Under the pieces are notes generated by a model. That model was given only the letters and a program-made list of their open reading frames with translations. It did no database searches and was not told where the DNA came from. Of a stretch of 64,000 bases of DNA, positions 4,556 to 54,300 are shown piece by piece. Numbering within the stretch: position 1 is the first letter of the stretch; the number at the start of each line of letters is the position of its first letter. The stretch covers positions 80,178,925-80,242,924 of the forward strand of contig CM038225.1 of the NCBI GenBank assembly GCA_021442155.1, given 5' to 3'. Position numbers and translations under genes: made by a program. This DNA is from Cymbidium sinense. Taxonomy: Eukaryota > Streptophyta > Magnoliopsida > Asparagales > Orchidaceae.

Positions 4556-5545
4556 AACTTACAAGTCTACCCTATAATTCAATTTTATGAAGTCTATATT
4601 ACAAACGTACGCAGAGCTTACATCCATTGAAATGTCATGATTTGAGTGATTAAAGTCTGCATTGCAGGCGTATATAGAGTGGCTTACATCTATTGGAATG
4701 CCATTTTGAATATGATTGAAGTTTGCATTGCAAATAAATCTTGGCTTACATCCATTGGAATACCGAGTCTGAAGTGATGTTTGCATTGCAAATATAGGTT
4801 GAGCTTACATCCATTGGAATGCCTGTGTTTGGAGTAATGTTTGCAGTGGAAACATAGGTTGGGCTTACATCCATTGGAATGTTGATTTGGATTGATGTTT
4901 GCATTGCAAACACGGGTTGGGCTTATATGCATTTAAATACCAGTTTTGATTTGACTTACATTTTTTTAGAATGTCGATTTTGAGAGTAATATTTGCATTG
5001 CAAACATGGGTTAGTCTCACATCTATTGGAATGCCAATTTGGATCGATGTTTGTGCTGCAAACATCAATTAAGCTTATATCCTTTTGGAATGTCATAATT
5101 TTAAATGTGTAGTTTGCCTTATGAAGAATGACTGCGCTTACATTTATTAGAATGCCATCATTTGAATAATTAAAGTTTGCATTGTAGACATGTATAAGAC
5201 TTACATCCATTGGAATGTCATGTTTGAATGATAAGTCTACATTATAGGCATGTATAATACTTGCATCCGTTGGAATGCCATGGTTTAATATGTTAATTGA
5301 AGTATGTATTGTAGATAAATATTAGATTTACATCCATCGGAATGCTATTGATTTGAAGTTAGGTTTGCATTGCAAACATAGGTTGGGCTTACATCAATTG
5401 AAATGCCATGATTTGAATTATTAAAGTCTACATTACAGACATCCTAGGGCTTTCATTCATTGGAATGCCATGATTTGATATGTTACTAAGGTATGTATGG
5501 CAAACATACCTTGGTGTTAATAATCGTTGGAATGCTAATTTTTTA
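4556..5545. repeat. Minisatellite, about 16 copies of a ~62-bp unit
   Basis: The landmark CTTACATCCATTGGAATGCC recurs, with changes, near 4617, 4683, 4744, 4803, 4863, 4921, 4964, 5014, 5073, 5135, 5200, 5260, 5328, 5389, 5452 and 5517. Spacing is mostly 58-68 bp, with one short pair at 43 and 50. Most units also hold TTTGCATTGCAAA, a short inverted repeat with one central base, followed by CATAGGTTGGG. On the minus strand several units read through without stops (repeated 'NGCKPN..C..CKH' peptides), which follows from the unit structure and is not evidence of a gene. Confidence 0.88.
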
Positions 5546-6285
5546 TGCGGAATATTTAAAATGATTTAATTTTATTTTATGTTTAGGATGAAACTTTGAT
5601 TTAATCTCATTTTTATATTTTGAGATGAATCTTTGATTTAATCTTGATTTATGTTTGAGATGAATTCTAAATTTATTAGAATCAATTTTAATGTATTTTT
5701 TATCTTTAATATTTTGTGTCTAATTTGATCAATTAGACTGCATCTATTGCAATCCCACAGTTGAAGTTTCAATATTATTATCCGAATGCAACAAGTCTTA
5801 GATATTTGATCGGTTCATCTTGATTTTTACATTGATTGTTAGATTATATTCTAGGCCTTAACACATTGTGTTTGATCCACTGAATAATTAATAATTGTTC
5901 ATGATTATGTTAGAATATAACTATGCTATTGTCGTTTCATCATTCAATTTATTCGTTAATGTACTTAAGTCTAACAAAGGAATTGAAGGTCTAAGTTTGG
6001 ATCTTTAAGCTTTTAATATGCAATTAATTAAATATTATTATTTTAATATGAGAAAAGGGAGTGTAATTTAATTGTATTTAATAATTGTAATATTTGATTT
6101 ATTTAATGTTTATTGTTAATATGAATGATTTTTTTTTATCATATTATAAAGTTCATTTTTCCTCATTTTAATGATTTTTATGAAAAATATTTAAGTTTAA
6201 TAAATTCCACGAAATTTCAGCAGTCTGACAGCTTAGAAGTGTTATATTTTCACGAAATTTAGTATGATTGACACTCTTCTCTTCT
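5546..6285. other. AT-rich DNA, no feature seen
   Basis: Long A/T stretches with scattered stops in all frames. No repeat edge or gene recognised. Confidence 0.5.
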
Positions 6286-7380: not shown

Positions 7381-7518
7381 CACCTATAGTTACTTACCCC
7401 TTCTAATGCTGAGAGAGAACTTTTGATTAAGGCTAATGTATCGCTAAACGCTAGTGTATCAGAAGACACTGTGGAGTATAAAATTCATCATTTTAACTTA
7501 AAAGCGGATGATTGGGGA

Positions 7519-7540
7519 ATGACGCTAGGGGTGAGCATTC
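7519..7540. repeat. hAT left target-site copy and TIR
   Basis: ATGACGC (7519-7525) followed by TAGGGGTGAGCATTC. Pairs with the right end at 13779-13800. Confidence 0.82.
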
Positions 7541-7914
7541 TATTTGGTTATTATTTGGTTTTGTTCCAACCGAATAAACCAAACTATTATTTTAAAAAAA
7601 ACCGAACTGACCAAAGTAGCACAAAAAAACCATATAAACTGAACCAAATAAATCGAATTAGAGTTCGGTTTATTCTCGATTTTCCTAAACCAATTATGAG
7701 AGAGATTAAAAAATTTTTTTTAAGTTAACAAACAAATAATAGAAATTTTATTAACTAAAGTTAAACTACATATACATATCGATACAATGTATAACGTAAA
7801 TAGTTTTTCATATTGATACAAATATACAATTTATGAATGTAATGTAAATAAAAAAATTATAAACAATTAACAAAGAAAGAAAATAAAATAGTACAATATA
7901 ATTCAATTGTATAC

Positions 7915-8460
7915 TAAACGAATCCCCATCAATTGAAATGTGATTATCGCCATAGAAAGCTATCAAATTTTCAAGACCCTGCTCAAAGAAGAGAGCAAAC
8001 TTCATTCAAATGCCTCCATTTGACAACCATCTCCAAGAATAACATATCTAGAATAAAAAAATATTATTCATGTTAATAAGATAGTATATTCTACAAAGAA
8101 TTATATAATATGAACCTAATGATTGAAGAATGATGAATAATATTATGATAAGGTCGACACAATCTCATTATCGATCAAATGAGTCTGATGTCTCTCATCA
8201 AGTGCCAATCCAACAGGCAACAGCATTGGCAATTCCCTGACCCAGAGGACCTATCCATAAAAAAGAAAAAGAAAAAAAAATTTACAGAGATTATTAATTG
8301 CTCAACAAAATCCTATGCTACATACAATGATAACTAAATGTAATTTGAAGCAAAGCCAGGACTTCAACACCGATGTTTCAAAATTCTGGTGACCAATGAC
8401 CAGTGTTCGCTTCCCCGACTAAGTCGTAAGTCCTGAACCGTCAAGTCTTCCTCCTAACTC
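7915..8460 (-). pseudogene. Captured transketolase gene fragment (three exon pieces)
   Basis: Minus strand, inside the hAT element, in the normal exon order. Piece A (about 8460-8360) gives EEDL..FR, then GHQNFET and GVEV in shifting frames, matching the plant transketolase stretch before the 'GPLGQGIANAV' block. Piece B (8250-8152) gives GPLGQGIANAV, then GLALDERHQTHL and DNEIV. Piece C (8047-7921) gives YVILGDGCQMEA and, after a frameshift, GLENLIAFYGDNHISIDGD. GDG...N is the thiamine-diphosphate binding motif. The gaps look like introns: AG acceptors precede B (TTTTTTATGGATAG) and C (TTTTTTTATTCTAG). So this is a piece of genomic DNA, not a cDNA copy. Frameshifts and the missing remainder of the enzyme exclude function. 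Confidence 0.85.
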
Positions 8461-10019
8461 CAAAGAAATCAAAGTAGAACATGAAAAGCTTTGCTAATCA
8501 AGAATGCCTCATAAATTTGAACTAGCTCGACAAAAAAATAAATACATGGTCGCCAATTGTAACTACCAACCGGTAATGTTGAGTTCATTAGAAATGATTA
8601 CAATAAAATAATAAAAAAAAACAAACCCGTGAGATTATGAAAATCAGATCACATTAATAATATGCACCATAAAGTATAAATTTCCAAAACTAAATCCATA
8701 CTTACAACAAGCAAAATATACTATCAAACATATTTGTCCACTTCATTTGTGCAATTTTTTTCTACTTTATTACGTTAAAGGCAACCCATGAATCTCTAAT
8801 CACATCCCAACAAATCCCAAATCATAGCCATTCCAAATTCCAAAGGCACGCCAGAATCTATAAAATCACACAATCTAACTAATTTTTTTAAAAAATAAGA
8901 TCCACATCCCAACAAATCTCAAACACCAAACTATTTAAAGCAAGAAGAAAATCAACACCAAATCACCTGACGCTATCAGAATAACAGATGCGAGCTTACC
9001 GTAGTAGAAAAACCAAAGCCATCAGAATGAAAGATGAACTATAAAGCTATATCCATATAGGAGGTTAAAACCATAACAAAAAAAAAACAAAGCAAGAGGA
9101 AATCAAAATATAGTCACAAAGAACACCAAGAAGTTCCCAAAAGAGTCACCAAAGGAGCAGAAAACTAGCCAAAATAGCCATCCCTCTAACCAACCTATAG
9201 CCAATAAGTACAATAACTGATCCAATAGAAGTCAAAGACAAAAAGATAAAGCGAAAAGCCCAAGAAGACAAACTACAAGCCAACTGAATAACATCAAAAG
9301 GCACCCAACCAAGCCACCAAGACACTAGCCAACTAATAGCCACCAAATATCCTTCAACCAACCATGAATAATATATACTTACATATATTTGTAATTTGGA
9401 TTTAGGAGCTCAAGCTCAACTATAAAAATATCTTTTGTTAACAAGATTCAAGTATAATATTTGAAAAATATGATCACCATATATACATACGAGATATGAA
9501 TAATTTTGGGAATCGCCAGCTCTAAGCCTTTAAGACTTAAGAGGGCAATAACACCAAAAAAAGTCACCACCGCATGTATACATCGATCATTCCATCATTG
9601 CTATCATTGCCCCTAAACCCTAAAAAAAAGCCTATTTGTAAAAAACCTTAAGATAAAACTAACGTACCAAACCAAAATTACAATCCAACAAGAAGATATA
9701 AAAATGTAAAAAAAAAAAAACATAAGATAAACTAAAATCAGACCATTGACCAATGAAAATTTGAAATCTATAAGTCTCTAAGAATATATCCCATGGAATC
9801 GGAATCAAGATTCCGCAATCCTCATCATAATTCAAGCTGAAGTTTGAGTTTCACTTAAGCTAAATGTAAACAAATAAATCATTAATTATTCATTTATTCT
9901 AAATTTCTAATTACGATTAAAAAATAAATCATTATAAATTTCAAAGATAAACAATACCTTCATCAAACTTCAATGTCATTAATATTTTCTTTCACATTTA
10001 CTGGATTTACCCATTTTGC
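8461..10019. other. hAT interior between transketolase piece and transposase
   Basis: AT-rich. It contains one hydrophobic minus-strand open frame of 71 codons (9361-9146) with two or three membrane-like stretches (GYLVAISWLVSWWLGWVPF and others), which I do not recognise. Further along in the same direction a GGTAAGC donor-like site lies near 9000. A telo-box-like CCCTAAACCCTAA lies at about 9612-9624, upstream on the minus strand. Together these could be another captured gene start, but no homology supports it. Confidence 0.3.
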
Positions 10020-11830
10020 TCATCCAACTCGCAATATATTAGAGCTTGTGCAATCTTTGGGATAATGAACTTCTAAATGCATCAAGAATACCACCATCAA
10101 AAACCGACTCGGCAACAAATAAATTGGAAATAAAAACATCACGAGCCATGTATGAGAATAGAAATCTTGGTGCATTAACCTTCCACCTTAAAATATCAAA
10201 CCGACGTCATCACTTGCACTCACCAAATACTTATCTAGACCGACATTATCTATATCATCCTTCCCAAAATTGGATCTTTTGAATTTCTATCATCAATATC
10301 TTGTCCCGAAGATCTGCAGTAAAACACTAACCCTTCGTAAAAAATTTTGTTTCTCTGGACCACTTCCTATTCGGCTTTCACCAAGAACTTTTATTTTGTA
10401 ATCAAAACATATCAAGCATTTGACCTAATAAGAGCAACGCCATCGGTCCTTCATACATATCCATAATAAGAACTCTACATAACTAAGCGGGATCTAAAAA
10501 ACAAGCAAAGATATATATTCAAATTCATTTTTCTATGACCCCAATATTTAGCAAATTTTGTCATCATTTTAAAGCCATACTTCTCACATTTTGATCACCA
10601 TCCATTTGCCAACTTTGAAGTACAAAGAACTTCGCAATTTCATAAAAAAAAAGTATTTGATGTCACATACAAAGAACCATAAAATTCTTAAAGTGAGTTC
10701 ATAAAATTTTTTCCAAGAAAGGGAGCAATTTTAACATTATTCCAATCATCATCACTTAAAACACCATTTACAATATGACTTTCATCATCATCCTTCTCTT
10801 GATTTAAATTGAGTATCAATCTCCTCATACCTTTCAAAAGCTCTCCAACTTAATCGCCGCACTTAACATTAAAATGTGGAATTCCATCAGAACATCTAAG
10901 CATAATATGCTTTTAGTTTTAATTTTTCAATTTCAATGCATTCTTTAAATTTCAGAACTGCGGTGATTGACGAATATATCTTACGCTTCAACATGACGCA
11001 TGATTGATATCTCTTTCGCCATCTTGCAATTAAGTTAACAATGATATGCATCTCATATGAATACCATCTAATACTCCTTTTCCAAATTTTTTTTGTAGAG
11101 CGTGATGATGCCATTATTAGAACTTGCATTATCAACAGTCACAGTAAAAATTGCTTCAATCCCCCAATCTACAAGACACTTCTCAACTTGTTGACCCAAT
11201 TTTTCCCTATGATTATAGAGGACAAAAGTTTATAACTCTTTATTGAGCCAATCATCATCAATAAAATGTGCGGATACATATAATATCAATTGATGTCCAA
11301 GTTTAGTAAGACAAACTCGGGCGTGACTTTTGAAAAGATTTTTTAAAATTCTCTCATCCCGATAAAATTTAAAACAATCACGTCAATCGTCCACCGTGAA
11401 GGTATTTGAAACATTGGACAACACCGAGACATGAAATATTTAAACCCCAACCTTCTACATAAGGTAATTCATCTAATAACCATTATAAAGCTTCCTTACA
11501 TTTTCTTGGTCAAATCTCCATGCCTTAAGATTTGCGTAATGCTCCTCACCTTTACCACTAAATTGAAATGCAAGTTTAGTTTGATTTGGTTCATTTTAAG
11601 GATTCTTGACATAAAAAGAAAATGTCTTAAGTTTGTCATTAATCTTTGGATCACCGTGATATGATTTCCCACAATAATTACATTTACTCATTTTTTCTCC
11701 TTCCTCATTAAGATATACCTCACAAAGTGATCCCAAACTTCGATCTAGTTTAGAGCTTTTCTTTTTTTGAAATTGGTGGTTTCATCACCGACACTAGCAT
11801 CTCCGTGAAGTAACTAATAATACTAGTCAT
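10020..11830 (-). pseudogene. hAT transposase, broken
   Basis: DNA-cutting enzyme of the element, read on the minus strand. N-terminal BED zinc finger at about 11745-11620: VWDHFVRY, then CNYCGKSYHGDPK in the next frame, then NLRHFL. RNase H-like core: FTVTVDNASSNN at 11148-11111, where the Asp of TVDN is a catalytic position in hAT enzymes, followed by HIVNLI and FKECIEIEKLK (11075-10920). C-terminal hATC dimerisation domain at 10200-10041: FDILRWKVNAPRF, MARDVFIS, VAESVFDGG, LDAFRSSLS. Overall length suits a plant hAT enzyme of 600-700 residues. Many stops and frameshifts make it inactive; the nearest relatives would be BED-type plant hATs. Confidence 0.86.
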
Positions 11831-12589
11831 ACTTGAGAACTAACAACTATCTCCAACTTGACATGTTTCTACTTCTAGAATAAAAAAATTAAATAAATTA
11901 AAAAAGAATTAAAAGAAAACATGCTTTAATAAATTACATTAACAACTTACTTCAGTTAAAGACGCTACAATATCGGTAAAAAAAAAGACATGAATCGTAT
12001 AATTGAACAATGTTAATTCATGTGAATCATGTTAACAAATTGTAATGCTCAATCACCAATCATCCATCTAGAATGTATCCCAAATATTATAATATAATGT
12101 CACATTTCAACATTACCGCTTCAATATTATTTTATTAAAGCCATCCCAATAAATCAATTTGTATTACTTGCATGCATTTAAAAAACACTAAGATAAAAAA
12201 AAAATATCATAAGGCTTACTTTATTTTTCCAAGACATGCATCATCGATCTACATACTACTACATGTCATACCAGAATGAAGCATAAACCATTATCCTCGA
12301 GACAGCATGAGATAGAGTAAGTTCAAATCATATGTTATACTATAATCGATATGATAAGAATGAGCCAATGATGTAAAGACTAAAGAGCATGTAATTCCAT
12401 CGCTAAGACTTCTGAGCTAAGATGTTCATACTTCATAGTTGCAGAAGTAGTAGACACAAAGTGTAACCGCATCGACAAACACAAACTTCATAGGCTATTT
12501 TTTTTTCTTTATCAATAAGAAAAAAAAAATTCAGAAACTTCCAGTAACCAACATGATAGATAACATAATACCCTAAACCATCAACAACC
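11831..12589. other. hAT 5' untranslated region, AT-rich
   Basis: No coding signal. It lies upstream of the transposase remnant on the minus strand and likely belongs to its leader or promoter side. Confidence 0.4.
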
Positions 12590-12939
12590 AATAAAGTCCA
12601 CGACAGTGACGACACAATCACAATTCACACAGGCTCACAATAAACCAAACCGAATAAATCAAACCGACCCACTGCTCACCCAGGCATGAATCAAACATTC
12701 AAACCATTAACAAAATTTCAACAAAGGAAGGAGTAGAGAGAGAGAGAGAGAGAGAGGAGTTGAGATAATGTGATTTTCTTCTTTGGGCCGTTACTCTCAA
12801 AGAATAAAGTCCAATGGCGACACATCCACAATTCACAGTGCTCACAAATCACAATAAACCAAACCGACGCTATCACCCATCGCCACCCAGTAATCAAACA
12901 TTCAAACCATCAACAAAATTTCAACAAAGGAAGGAGTAC

Positions 12940-12980
<41 letters not shown>

Positions 12981-13215
12981 TTGAGATAATGTGAGTTCTA
13001 CCGCTGGTACCTCTCAAAGAATAAAGTCCACAATTACCACAAAGGACGATTACACCCACAAGTCACAATAGCTCAAACCCATCCATCTGCCACCCAAAGA
13101 ATCAAACATTCAAAACATTAACAAAATTTCAACAAAGGAAGGAGAGAGAGAGAGAGAGAGAGAGAAAAAAGAGAGGAGTTGAGATAATGTGATTTAGTTC
13201 TACCATTGTACCTCT
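12590..13215. repeat. Tandem triplication, ~205-bp unit with a GA tract
   Basis: CATTCAAACCATTAACAAAA starts at 12696, 12899 and 13107 (periods 203 and 208). Each copy continues TTTCAACAAAGGAAGGAG, then a (GA)n tract, then GAGTTGAGATAATGTGA, then CTCTCAAAGAATAAAGTCCA. GA tracts differ in length (about 25-45 bp), as expected for a mutable microsatellite. It lies in the right subterminal part of the hAT element, upstream of the transposase on the minus strand. Confidence 0.9.
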
Positions 13216-13778
13216 CAAAGAATCAAAAGACTTAAATTCAAATCGATGGGAAGAAGAGTGAAGACATAAGTCAAACGTAGATGTAGATGCTAATATCCGG
13301 CATCCGCTGGCAAAAAAAATAAAAGGAAGGAGAAGTCGCCGCAATGAAAAGTGACGAAAGTGAAAGCCCAAAAGATCGAAATCGAGATTCTAATCGCCGG
13401 GTCTGAACTGAATGCCAATGCCTTATGCGCCGACTCGAGACTCTCCATCCTCAAGAAGTGTATGGCATCGATCGCCATCGAAGAGTCGAGGAATGAAAAC
13501 TCAACCCGGCGTCTCTAAGTAAATCGACATTCGACTCGCTGCCACTCAACTCATCCGCGACTCGACTGACGACGACTAAAATAAGCTCTCCGGCGCCATA
13601 CGCCCGCTCTAATCTATAATCCAAATAAATCTTAACCGTAAAATCAAATTTAATAACTTAAAATCAACCAAAACCATAAAACCGTATTAACCCATAATTT
13701 CAACCAAAATCAAATAATGAATATAAAATCGAACCAAACCGACCAATTAACATCGGTCGCCGATTTTTCTTTTAATCG
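13216..13778. other. hAT right subterminal region, GC-richer core
   Basis: 13380-13610 is unusually GC- and CpG-rich for this window (GCCGACTCGAGACTC, CATCCGCGACTCGACTGACG). 13620-13760 is a row of AACCAAA/CCGAACC motifs, typical of transposase-binding subterminal DNA in hAT elements. The GC-rich block could be the transposase promoter and leader on the minus strand; no frame is convincing. Confidence 0.4.
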
Positions 13779-13800
13779 CCTAATGCACACCTGATGACGC
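13779..13800. repeat. hAT right TIR and target-site copy
   Basis: CCTAATGCACACCTG followed by ATGACGC (13794-13800). Pairs with 7519-7540. Confidence 0.82.
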
Positions 13801-29930: not shown

Positions 29931-29949
29931 TTTGGCATGATTTGCATAC

Positions 29950-30945
29950 ATCTTAAATATTTTGTGCAAATTATATATAAAAAATTGCATGCAAGAGACC
30001 CTTTTAAAATTAGTAGTGAAATTAGTTTTAATGTTTCCTATTTCAGTTGGATTACATCAAGGATCAACTTTAAGCCCTTATCTTTTTGCTTTAGTTATGG
30101 ATGTTCTTACTAGGCATTTACTGGAAGATGTACCTTGGTGTATGTTTTTTGCTGATGACATTCTTCTTGTTGATAAGACTAGAGAGGCAGTCCAAGAGAA
30201 ACTTGAATTATGGAGGTCAACCTTAGAGTCTAAAGGTTTTCGTTTAAGTAGATCTAAAACCGAATATATGGAGTGTAATGTTAGTTGTAGAAGTTATAGT
30301 GGTAGTGTTACATTAGGTGAACAAGGAATTAAAAAGAGTGAGCGATTCAGATATTTAGGCTCTATTGTTCAAAATAATGGTGAAATAGATGGAGATGTTA
30401 TTAGTAGAATTCAAGTTGTATGGTTGAAGTGGAGAAATGCATCTGGCCTATTGTGTGATAAAAAGGTAACGCTTAAACTTAAGGGAAAATTTTATAAGAT
30501 GGTGGTAAGACCTGCAATGATTTATGGTGCAGAATGTTGGCCAATAAAAGAGAAGCATGAGACTAAGTTAAGTGTTGCAGAGATGAGGATCCTTAGGTGG
30601 ATTAGTGGCTTTACTCTTAGAGATAAAATGCGAAATGTGTATGTTTGGGAAAAAGTTGGAGTAGCTCTAGTGGCAGATAAGATTAGGAGAGTCGCTTTAG
30701 ATGGTTTGGCCACATAAAGCGTTGGCCGTCCAATGACCCGGTTAGGAGAGTAGATGCATTAGATTTGCTTTATGTTAAGAAAGGTAGAGGTAGACCTAAA
30801 AAGACATGATTAAGATGTATAAAAAATGATCTTAGTATACTTGAATTGAATGAGAATTTGATATGTAATAGGACACAATGGAGACGAAGGATTCATGTAG
30901 CCGACCCCACTTAGTGGGATAAAGGCTTGTTGTTGTTGTTGTTTA
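29950..30945 (+). mobile_element. RTE-clade LINE, 5'-truncated, with (TTG)n tail
   Basis: Non-LTR retrotransposon inserted in the gypsy remnant above. It starts inside the reverse transcriptase palm, keeps the whole 3' end, and ends GCCGACCCCACTTAGTGGGATAAAGGCTTG(TTG)n. Plant RTE elements typically end in TTG repeats. Four further pieces of the family are in this window (16422, 33085, 34332, 35055). Confidence 0.9.
29962..30717 (+). CDS. RTE LINE reverse transcriptase, C-terminal part, 251 codons
   Basis: The longest open frame in the window. Reads FPISVGLHQGSTLSPYLF (fingers/palm), PWCMFFADDILLVDKT (catalytic F-A-D-D motif), LESKGFRLSRSKTEYMEC, RFRYLGSIVQNNGEIDGDV, LKGKFYKMVVRPAMIYGAEC and LSVAEMRILRWISG, all standard plant RTE blocks. 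The endonuclease and the N-terminal half are missing because of 5' truncation; the first Met is just where the frame opens. The frame ends early at 30717, where related copies continue, so one small change has shortened it. Not expected to be functional, but it is the best-preserved transposon coding region here. Confidence 0.85.
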   Translation: MCKLYIKNCMQETLLKLVVKLVLMFPISVGLHQGSTLSPYLFALVMDVLTRHLLEDVPWCMFFADDILLVDKTREAVQEKLELWRSTLESKGFRLSRSKTEYMECNVSCRSYSGSVTLGEQGIKKSERFRYLGSIVQNNGEIDGDVISRIQVVWLKWRNASGLLCDKKVTLKLKGKFYKMVVRPAMIYGAECWPIKEKHETKLSVAEMRILRWISGFTLRDKMRNVYVWEKVGVALVADKIRRVALDGLAT

Positions 30946-51305: not shown

Positions 51306-54300
51306 CTACACAGAAATGAATAAGCATGCTAAAGTCGTCCAGAAGAACAGCAATGGAAGAAGCATTGGGCTAAGAGACAAAGGACCTGCATTTGGCAGCC
51401 ATGGATATGCATCTGGAGCCGGCATTACGCAGAGGTCACCATTGAAGTATATTCGTCGAGGGAAAGCCCATCCCTTCTGGAAAGTGAAGGTCGAGTCATC
51501 CTTGCGAAAAAGCAGTTCAGATTGAACATTTCCAGCAGGACCAGCTTCCATGAGCAAGTCATTGTAGTACTTCATCCCCCATAGCATTGCAGTATCATCT
51601 AAGAAAATCAAATTTGCAAACAAAACAGTTAGAACCCAACCAAACTAAACTTTGTATCAGGTGATCAAGTTTCAGTACATACTTATGCCACCGTAAGGAG
51701 TAAGGGACTTATAATCGAAGCTAAAGATCTGTGTGATATTATCAAAATTAGGATGCTGGACAACGAGGTTCCACTGTGTGTAGTTCATCCTGTAGTTGAA
51801 GTTTGTAATTGAGATTTTTGATCGCCAATATTCTTTGTAGTTGAGCTTAACATGCCAATGAACCCTTATAGGGCACATATGAGATGTGCACTGAACTAAC
51901 GGTACGAGGCTATATTTTCCAGGGCCGTTGACGACAGAAGCGAGATAGGGCGAATCTTCCCTGCGAAAAGAGACGAAAAGAGTGTTATTTTGGTTCTTCT
52001 CTACACTCCAATGGCATTTGGAGGTAAAAGATTTTAAGATATGAGCATAATATATAGTTCTTACTCTACACAGCTCCCTGGTTGAGTAATGTTGTTTTGG
52101 CAGCCACAGGAACATGTTGGGCAGTCGACAATTGTGTCATTGTAGAAGGATGAAAGAGAGACACAGCATGAAGGGGTCTTCTGAGAAAGGAATTGGGAGT
52201 ACGTACATGTGACGTTCCATGTCACTGAAACAATAAATAGCAGACATTTCAGCTTCCTATAATGAAATAAAATTTGTTTTTATAAACTATCAAGAAACTG
52301 ATGAGAGTAGCAGAGATGGAATCAGAAGCACATGAACAAAATGCATTTTCTGATTCTCATTGTTGAGAGGGGTCTACGTTCCAACCATAAAACAAAATCT
52401 TTACACAAATAGGCAAGATATTAGAGTGTGACCCCTGTACTGGGCCATAAAACATTAATCCTTTCATCACTAGTCGAGAAGAAAATAAGGCTGTAATTGT
52501 AATAAAGTGATTGTGGAATGAACGAAAATCAATAAGCCAAACACCAAAGACATGGATTCCATGACATTTGACCAAGTATGACTTAATCTTCCCCTTTCAA
52601 AAATTTTGTGGCTCCCTATGTATTTCCTATGGGTTCATCAAGAGGAAACATATATTAATATTATGAAACTATGAATTACCCGTTAACATTCACCATTAAA
52701 AAACTTTTTATTCCCATCTCAAAACAAACAAAGCAATGAAGGGATTAGTAAAAAAAGGAGTTTTTTTGATTGCACGTCTCAAAGTAAAGCTCCTCAAGTT
52801 CTCTAATCATCAATGTAACAAGCAAACAAACAATTACACAATACAAAACTACATATACAAATTATTAGTGAGTTAACTGCATCCAATGAATTTAACTTAC
52901 TCAGTGCTTGGGTTGTTCTCCTGCCATCTTGTGAAACAAATTGGGTTTGTTTCACAATCTTTGCCGCACCACAAGTATACCCAGGTCCAGGCGCTTTGAG
53001 AGTGAAATTCTTAGGCACACGAACTGTCTTATTGGTCGTTCCTGCAGCTCCAACACTAACCTGGAATGCACTAACGGCGTTTGGTGGATCCTGAACCCAT
53101 GAACTAATCACTCCTCCCTTGCAACAATTAGCAATCTGCATGTTATATGGAGTTCCAGGCAAGAGATCGACGACTGTTGGATCTTTCTTGCAGCAGTGGG
53201 GAATGTTTGCCTTAAATTTTGAGCAGTCTCCCTGTTCTGTGGTCTGTGCACCAACCATGGACCATATAACCTCCTTCTTAGGCCATGTCCAGCCTAACGT
53301 CCATCCTGGCGATTGGATGTGGCGGTATTGCTGGTAGTTGTTTATCGTAACAACAGCCTAAAAGTTCATGTAAGTTTGTTTAAGCTTCCTGCTTTTAAAA
53401 TTATACTGATAGCATCGAGAGAGCTAAGATCTATCGATTACATAAAGAATTAAATTCATAAGGAATAAGGTTTTGTGCTTACAACATAGCCATCTGGAGT
53501 CCATTGCATTATATCCCATTTGATGGTTATGTTACCATTTGGGTCAAGAGCATCAAAAGCTTCTGCAAGTAGTAAAATTTTTTTTTTGTCAAATTTGTAA
53601 ATTGATCCTGAAATTTATTCAAGCAATGAAAAAGGGAATAGCTGTTATAATCTCAAATGTAACAAATCTCATTAACTACAATTCAAGGCACTGTTTAAAG
53701 CCTGAAGTGCAAACTATTAATGGCTGTTTGGCTACAAGAAAGATTTAGAACAAGGAGTTGGTAAATTCTGGGTGTATTAAATCTTGAGAATGGTTGGGCA
53801 TAGTAGGTTCTAAGTCTGGATAAATTTTGATGAATTGTTTGGCTATTTTTTTGAACGATTAGTATTTAACAGAATATGATATTTAAACAACAAGAACACA
53901 TCATGAGATACTTATAAGCATAGTTTGACTATGCATTTAAATAAATTGTCCACAGTTATATAATTTTTTGTCATTATAGCATGTTAAAAGTCACAATGGC
54001 TTCTTCCTCATCCCCTTTTTTCTTCATCAATCCAGGAACGCATCACAGATCCCTGCTCTAATTAGAACACAAAACAGAAGAACTCTGATCTCCTCCTCTC
54101 CTCCCTGAAGGTTAGCAGTTTTTGCCAAATACAATGGCGGAGGCAATGGAAGCGGAAAGGCATAAACTTTTTCTGGTTAAGCTGACCAGAATCATGAAGC
54201 GCGCTGACGAAATGCTGCTTCTGGTTGCGTATAAAGTGGTCAGGGCGGCATTACAGATCCCTCACTTTCCTGAGATCAAGTGAAATCCGGCTCCACATAG

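Follow-up and report, generated by a model that had tools for sequence, protein, structure and literature searches.

Transketolase gene DNA inside copies of a hAT transposon family of Cymbidium sinense

A hAT element with a transposase relic and transketolase exons

The window analysed here, a stretch of 64,000 nucleotides (C12:80178925-80242924 of the Cymbidium sinense genome), contains a hAT element of 6,267 bp at positions 7526..13792 on the minus strand, within which transketolase (TK) gene DNA and a transposase relic both lie on the minus strand; its bounds are based on the target-site duplication (TSD), the terminal inverted repeats (TIRs) and homology across copies. Elsewhere in the window, we observed a COBRA-like gene on the minus strand (52803-53357 and 51672-52136, each in an open frame; Pfam COBRA E 1.1e-64, COB_C E 7.5e-24) and, on the plus strand, an open frame with a reverse transcriptase domain (29941-30717; RVT_1, E 4e-16), a retrotransposon remnant.

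A first-pass annotation of this DNA had proposed the capture of TK exons by a hAT transposon, and had given no TIR or TSD coordinates for the element ends. Specifically, the 3' end maps at 7526, where the element begins with TAGGGGTGAGCATT (TAGGGGTGAGCATTC as read on the plus strand), and the 5' end maps at 13792 (AGGTGTGCATT as read on the minus strand), where AATGCACACCT is followed by GATGACGC. The latter sequence, at 13793..13800, shows one mismatch to AATGACGC at 7518..7525, left of 7526, with 7/8 TSD bases matching. A TIR and TSD combination equally good was obtained in 2/300 shuffles of an 11.5-kb stretch, in which the script sought both features. In addition, in 15/20 other copies the homology extends out to 13791-13789, with a query that ended at 13792, and TSDs adjoin the equivalent of this end in other copies. 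On these grounds, we place the right end of the window element at 13792.

A right end at 12672, beside a perfect GGGTGAGCA at 12673-12681, was rejected, being located inside a tandem array and showing a best TSD with three mismatches. The array (12585..13222, 5' of the transposase) is composed of three units of about 200 bp with GA tracts, the first of which includes this misleading TIR-like GGGTGAGCA; array DNA is matched in 18/20 other copies and therefore belongs to the element. Motifs of the CGGTT/TTTGGTT type are concentrated at both ends, numbering 7 in 7500-7749 and 6 in 13500-13749, compared to a window mean of 0.44 per 250 bp. A sub-cut-off Pfam match to fvmX6 (13273-13619, E 0.004) was taken as chance.

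The transposase relic maps to 9956..11801 on the minus strand and covers residues 25-716 of P0121, a relative of 717 residues, with many interrupting frameshifts and stops (score 825, compared to 77-86 in five shuffles). The number of frameshifts relative to P0121 and P0124 ranges from 18 to 57, varying with the relative and the penalty chosen. Eighteen plant hAT transposases (P0121-P0138, several of them named RICESLEEPER-like) matched at E<=0.001; they possess BED, RNase-H and dimerisation domains, as found in the present family, while the relics here are broken and identity with these hits is limited to 24-59% across portions of the query. For the window copy itself, the sole domain match was to RNase-H, at E 0.045, below the cut-off. 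The transposase gene named in the capture proposal thus survives here as a relic with dozens of lesions: the window copy is an old, broken hAT element.

On the minus strand, positions 8457-7915 hold broken pieces of a plant transketolase, including EEDL..NFET.GVEV and YVILGDGCQME..GDNHISIDGD. Three exon remnants can be distinguished, namely exon 2 at about 8354..8457 (EEDL..GHPENFETPGVEVTT), exon 3 at 8155..8251 (GPLGQGIANAV..DNEIV) and the first part of exon 4 at 7915..8058 (YVILGDGCQME..DDNHISIDGD), which ends at the capture breakpoint. A protein-to-DNA alignment allowing frameshifts and introns reached a score of 280 with the best of 120 TK homologues, all of which have the anchor motif used, compared to 51-79 for 20 shuffles of the same DNA aligned to the best-scoring protein. 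The Pfam Transketolase_N match (E 5e-4, 19.6 bits) lies under the curated cut-off of 22, and the closest PDB chains are the plant transketolases 1itz and 8ci0, at E about 3e-5. The two gaps between the exons are intron-sized and fall where plant gene models show intron-related errors: an insertion in P0020 at EVTT/GPLGQG, deletions in P0001 and P0054 near HYT/YVILG, and an insertion in P0033 by EDLK. Moreover, the introns in the window align with those of a TK gene on C10. These data bear out both the TK match and the three pieces with intron-like gaps annotated at 7915..8460.

The limits of that span fared unequally. Its start is the exact capture breakpoint, the 3' junction being located from sequence at 7915/7914 in the window and read as such in other copies. 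Its end proved too short: beyond 8460, captured intron-1 DNA continues up to 8954, visible only when donor DNA is used as the query. Blastn of the donor against the window element aligned element positions 4839-4982 and 4997-5870, corresponding to window 8954-8811 and 8796-7923. The surviving captured DNA therefore occupies 7915..8954 on the minus strand and matches C10:80042971-80044125 with gaps, the exon-1 part being largely lost. At the protein level, extension of the match past 8460 was not significant (61, shuffles 53-83). A TK-like score at 7721-7640 (43, compared to 26-42 in 20 shuffles) lies past the junction, where the donor has no match, and was set aside as chance. A Pfam search of the plus strand revealed no other captured gene in the window element.

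Copies across the genome

A profile search of the genome (3,525,751,733 bases), in which 120/143 candidates were scored so that counts are lower bounds, returned at least 81 Transketolase_N stretches, comprising whole genes and short dispersed matches; the window copy is itself absent from these 81. Twenty-nine short dispersed matches were chosen by eye as ending at profile positions 180-196, where the TK piece of the window stops, and 20 of them were fetched and compared, giving 21 copies with that of the window, all ascertained through the TK piece.

All 20 fetched loci contain the hAT element of the window, in copies of 2.2 to 6.8 kb, and none of the fetched fragments was seen outside it, in support of the proposed capture by a hAT. 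Homology begins at element positions 2-4 in 15/20 loci and reaches position 6267 in 14/20; because only the element served as query, such matches give the reach of the homology and not its limit, and the ends rest on TIRs and TSDs. Among the 18 copies with both ends located, 10 start exactly with TAGGGGTGTGCATTA and 7 finish exactly with GAATGCTCACCCCTA; short TIR ends of such form are typical of hATs.

Other copies bearing the fragment thus exist, with TSDs of their own. For each locus, 81 placements of the ends were compared and the best TSD was retained; a perfect match is then expected by chance in about 0.1% of loci by our own arithmetic. Identical 8-bp TSDs flank 9/20 copies (L009, L011, L012, L013, L014, L016, L018, L019 and L026); these nine all differ from one another in TSD, and therefore represent separate insertions. 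A single mismatch was observed in two loci (L022 and L010, the latter with a poorly placed 3' end), two or three mismatches in seven (L015, L017, L021, L024, L025, L027 and L028), none of them convincing, while in L020 and L023 the 5' end was not located.

Near-full-length transposase relics are present in 13/21 copies, that of the window included, and partial ones in 5/21. The short copies L014, L017 and L024 gave scores of 40-67, below the range of 77-86 obtained from shuffles under different penalties. The best-kept transposase is that of L012, in which zf-BED, hAT-like_RNase-H and Dimer_Tnp_hAT all exceed the Pfam curated cut-offs, but which still shows three stops and three frameshifts relative to a diverged relative; an intact transposase frame was found in 0/21 copies examined. 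In L012, no further captured gene was found by Pfam between the transposase and the TK piece (both strands) or in the 5' part (plus strand); in the same searches, a sub-cut-off match to MRAP (E 0.046) was taken as chance. In conclusion, the TK piece has been carried, mostly beside a transposase gene, to at least 21 genomic loci, by a family that shows 8-bp TSDs, short TIRs and, in L012, a BED/RNase-H/dimerisation transposase, as is the case for hATs. Elements bearing both parts were presumably once autonomous.

The copies fall into two subfamilies. Subfamily 1 comprises ten copies, including that of the window, in which exons 2-4 are kept and introns measure 92-108 bp. In subfamily 2 (L014, L016-L018, L021, L022 and L024-L027), no donor match was found over exon 3 in 10/10 copies, and GDS replaces GDG in exon 4 in 9/10; some of these copies also show repeated pieces of TK intron 1. 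In FastTree trees, the subfamily-2 copies group together both on the 3' block, where 10 copies do so at 0.994 and L013 is their sister, and on the transposase, where 7 copies do so at 1.000; L013 is intermediate between the two subfamilies.

Donor gene and breakpoints of the captured DNA

The family majority, introns included, was compared with three intron-bearing TK genes, one on C10 and two on C4. Identity is 698/739 with the C10 gene and 507/735 and 462/705 with the C4 genes, counts that take in 60 nt past the junction, and of the three genes that on C10 is the closest to every one of the ten subfamily-1 copies. Over 658 sites up to the junction, introns included, at which at least 6/10 subfamily-1 copies agree, the majority lies at a K2P distance of 0.017 from the C10 gene. 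Judged from these alignments, the C10 TK gene is the donor or a near-identical relative of it, and a donor gene with matching introns, as the capture proposal called for, has thus been traced in the same genome.

The donor stretch covers approximately C10:80042808-80044125, and its layout (C10:80042810-80044125) is part of exon 1, a 600-bp intron, exon 2, a 112-bp intron, exon 3, a 101-bp intron and part of exon 4. Hence, what had been described as three exon pieces is larger in the family, where it comprises three introns and portions of four exons. The three introns of the captured piece align with those of the C10 gene, and their retention points to transduplication at the DNA level and excludes a retrocopy. 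A separate group of sequences, L001 and L002 (C3:194654487 and C7:72860261) with their neighbours on C3, C7, C4 and C8, shows Transketolase_N running through 700-800 bp with no intron breaks, in some cases with in-frame stops; these are processed copies or intron-poor TK-like sequences, distinct from the three intron-bearing genes.

At the 3' side, the donor match reaches C10:80044125 in 15/21 copies, while in the other six it stops at 80044105-80044120. The junction itself, GCGTTTA/RTATACAATTG (the slash marks the breakpoint), was read in eight copies belonging to both subfamilies, one of which has GCATTTA; in L009, L012, L015 and L020 it reads GCGTTTA/GTATAC. This common breakpoint argues for one capture, inherited and spread.

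The 5' breakpoint falls within CCGGGG near C10:80042808 and is kept only in L009, L012 and L015, donor similarity beginning later in the other copies. In L009, element DNA ending in ..TTAGTTGGCCTAGGGTACTGG is followed by GGCTGCC.ATGGGTTGC, encoding GLPMGC as in other transketolases. In each of these three copies, ATATTTGGTGGCTATTAG or a closely similar sequence is present in duplicate, with one occurrence immediately ahead of the TK piece and the other about 540-560 bp further upstream.

The C10 gene shows no stops relative to P0009 across the aligned stretch and, as assembled, one frameshift in exon 1, where about 11 bases are missing (C10:80042807-80042810, L032) that L009 keeps in its GLPMGC. 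This gap may represent damage after the capture or an assembly error, or else the capture drew on a near-identical gene or allele. It lies near the 5' limit of the DNA carried by the transposon.

Origin and fate of the captured DNA

All together, these data support a single capture, at the DNA level, of about 1.3 kb from the C10 TK gene or a near-identical relative by a transposase-bearing hAT, followed by spread and decay, a reading to which we assign a probability of about 0.93. In such a course of events, a hAT with a full-length transposase gene would have acquired this stretch by DNA copying, without mRNA, between the transposase gene and the 3' end of the element and in sense orientation. 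The enlarged element would then have moved as a unit, using transposase from family members, leaving at least 21 TK-bearing insertions whose copies later decayed.

The TK piece could instead have arrived in a second element, a Pack-MULE, hAT or Helitron, nested in the ancestral hAT, and its location away from the transposase gene, in DNA that tolerates nested insertions, is compatible with this. In the decayed window copy, however, a scan around the TK piece for nested TIRs with TSDs of 8-9 bp gave none (one was found in 1/10 shuffles), and no Helitron-like hairpin/CTRR end appeared on either strand; we hold a nested origin to be improbable.

Nearly the same low standing belongs to the hypothesis that the TK exons were co-opted, as part of a functional chimeric protein or a second element protein under selection. 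The sense orientation of the piece and long clean TK stretches in some copies would agree with it, as would the exon-4 block, which with about 300 bp after it is among the best-conserved stretches, between subfamilies too. This conservation is not codon-specific, since the block continues past the breakpoint into non-coding DNA, with a value of 0.94 between the subfamilies over window 7942-7793. In subfamily 1, codon positions 1, 2 and 3 show nearly equal numbers of differences, at 100/102/104 for the exon-4 part and 500/428/563 for exons 2-3, compared to 5/3/36 between the host genes L029 and L030. A mild third-position excess is observed among subfamily-2 copies (182/154/258) and when the two subfamilies are compared (408/316/491), which could be counted in favour of co-option and which we tentatively read as mutation bias. 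Furthermore, most of the enzyme is missing from the piece, and the loss of donor-like exon 3 and the GDS substitution in subfamily 2 speak against a retained function. From the about even codon positions and the extension of the conserved block beyond coding DNA, we conclude that the TK piece probably decays mainly as a passenger, about neutrally.

Several independent captures, from this TK gene or from paralogues, could account for the difference between the subfamilies around exon 3, but the 3' junction base is identical in both of them, as read in eight copies, and all ten subfamily-1 copies have the C10 gene as the closest of the three genes compared, making repeated capture very improbable. 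Finally, an old host pseudogene at this site, with hAT ends mis-assigned or derived from two insertions, would be suggested by the mismatched TSD and the tempting false inner end of the window copy alone, and can practically be dismissed given TK and element DNA together at 20 further loci, nine of them with identical TSDs that differ between loci.

Returning to the single capture, subfamily-1 copies lie at K2P 0.023-0.083 from the majority of the others, and the window copy at 0.128; the divergence of the latter is about 1.5-fold that of the next most diverged copy among the ten, and it shows many small indels. The donor-majority distance of 0.017 is smaller than these divergences, and the spread of the TK-bearing element therefore seems to have followed soon after the capture.

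As for the copying step, we favour template switching while an excision break was being repaired, because each of the three copies with a surviving 5' junction shows a repeat of element DNA immediately ahead of the TK piece; the donor-like gene still in place also inclines us towards copying. An alternative is the fusion of two neighbouring insertions, the model proposed for Pack-TYPE elements and retold in PMC13317346.

Gene capture by hATs is a process already known, and what is above average here is the resolution, with exact bounds. Pack-hATs of maize and rice hold host gene fragments between hAT TIRs flanked by 8-bp TSDs (PMC8903248, 2022), and the present family resembles them in that a TK gene fragment lies between the TIRs and has been duplicated to new loci. 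In contrast, the Pack-TYPE pipeline described in that paper classes any element matching a transposase as autonomous and so excludes those with both transposase and fragment, as are most copies here; only the short L014, L017 and L024, whose transposase scores do not exceed those of shuffles, would qualify. Closer in this respect are the Hatvine-6 elements of grapevine, hATs with common transposase and TIRs whose copies carry sequences matching host exons and introns (PMC2528002, 2008), and the first-pass view of cargo beside a transposase as a rarity among hATs has to be tempered. According to that report, the variable region of Hatvine-6 is often unique or present in few elements, whereas here one donor and one 3' breakpoint are common to 21 copies, found through TK. 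The Ulp1 domain of MULEs and CACTA elements offers a further likeness, as a captured host sequence inherited with the transposase gene (PMC2528002, PMC13317346); the MULE piece is described as ancient and conserved in eudicots (PMC13317346), while the TK piece decays about neutrally. A literature search, judged by title, found no plant paper on transketolase with transposon, pseudogene or capture.

One genome thus offers a hAT capture whose donor is known and whose 3' breakpoint is exact to the base, with a cargo of about 1.3 kb and many later insertions. The mechanism by which cut-and-paste elements acquire gene pieces becomes testable in this family once TK-free relatives are found, the repeat at the 5' junction being a first hint. 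In addition, elements with transposase and gene cargo, set aside as autonomous by one Pack-TYPE survey, can be multi-copy. With the TK exons lying as sense cargo at the 3' side of transposase-coding hATs, read-through, chimeric or small RNAs of the family could conceivably have acted on the C10 TK gene in the period of its activity, a prospect that we regard as unlikely; if true, the cargo would have been a regulatory liability or advantage, beyond a passenger.
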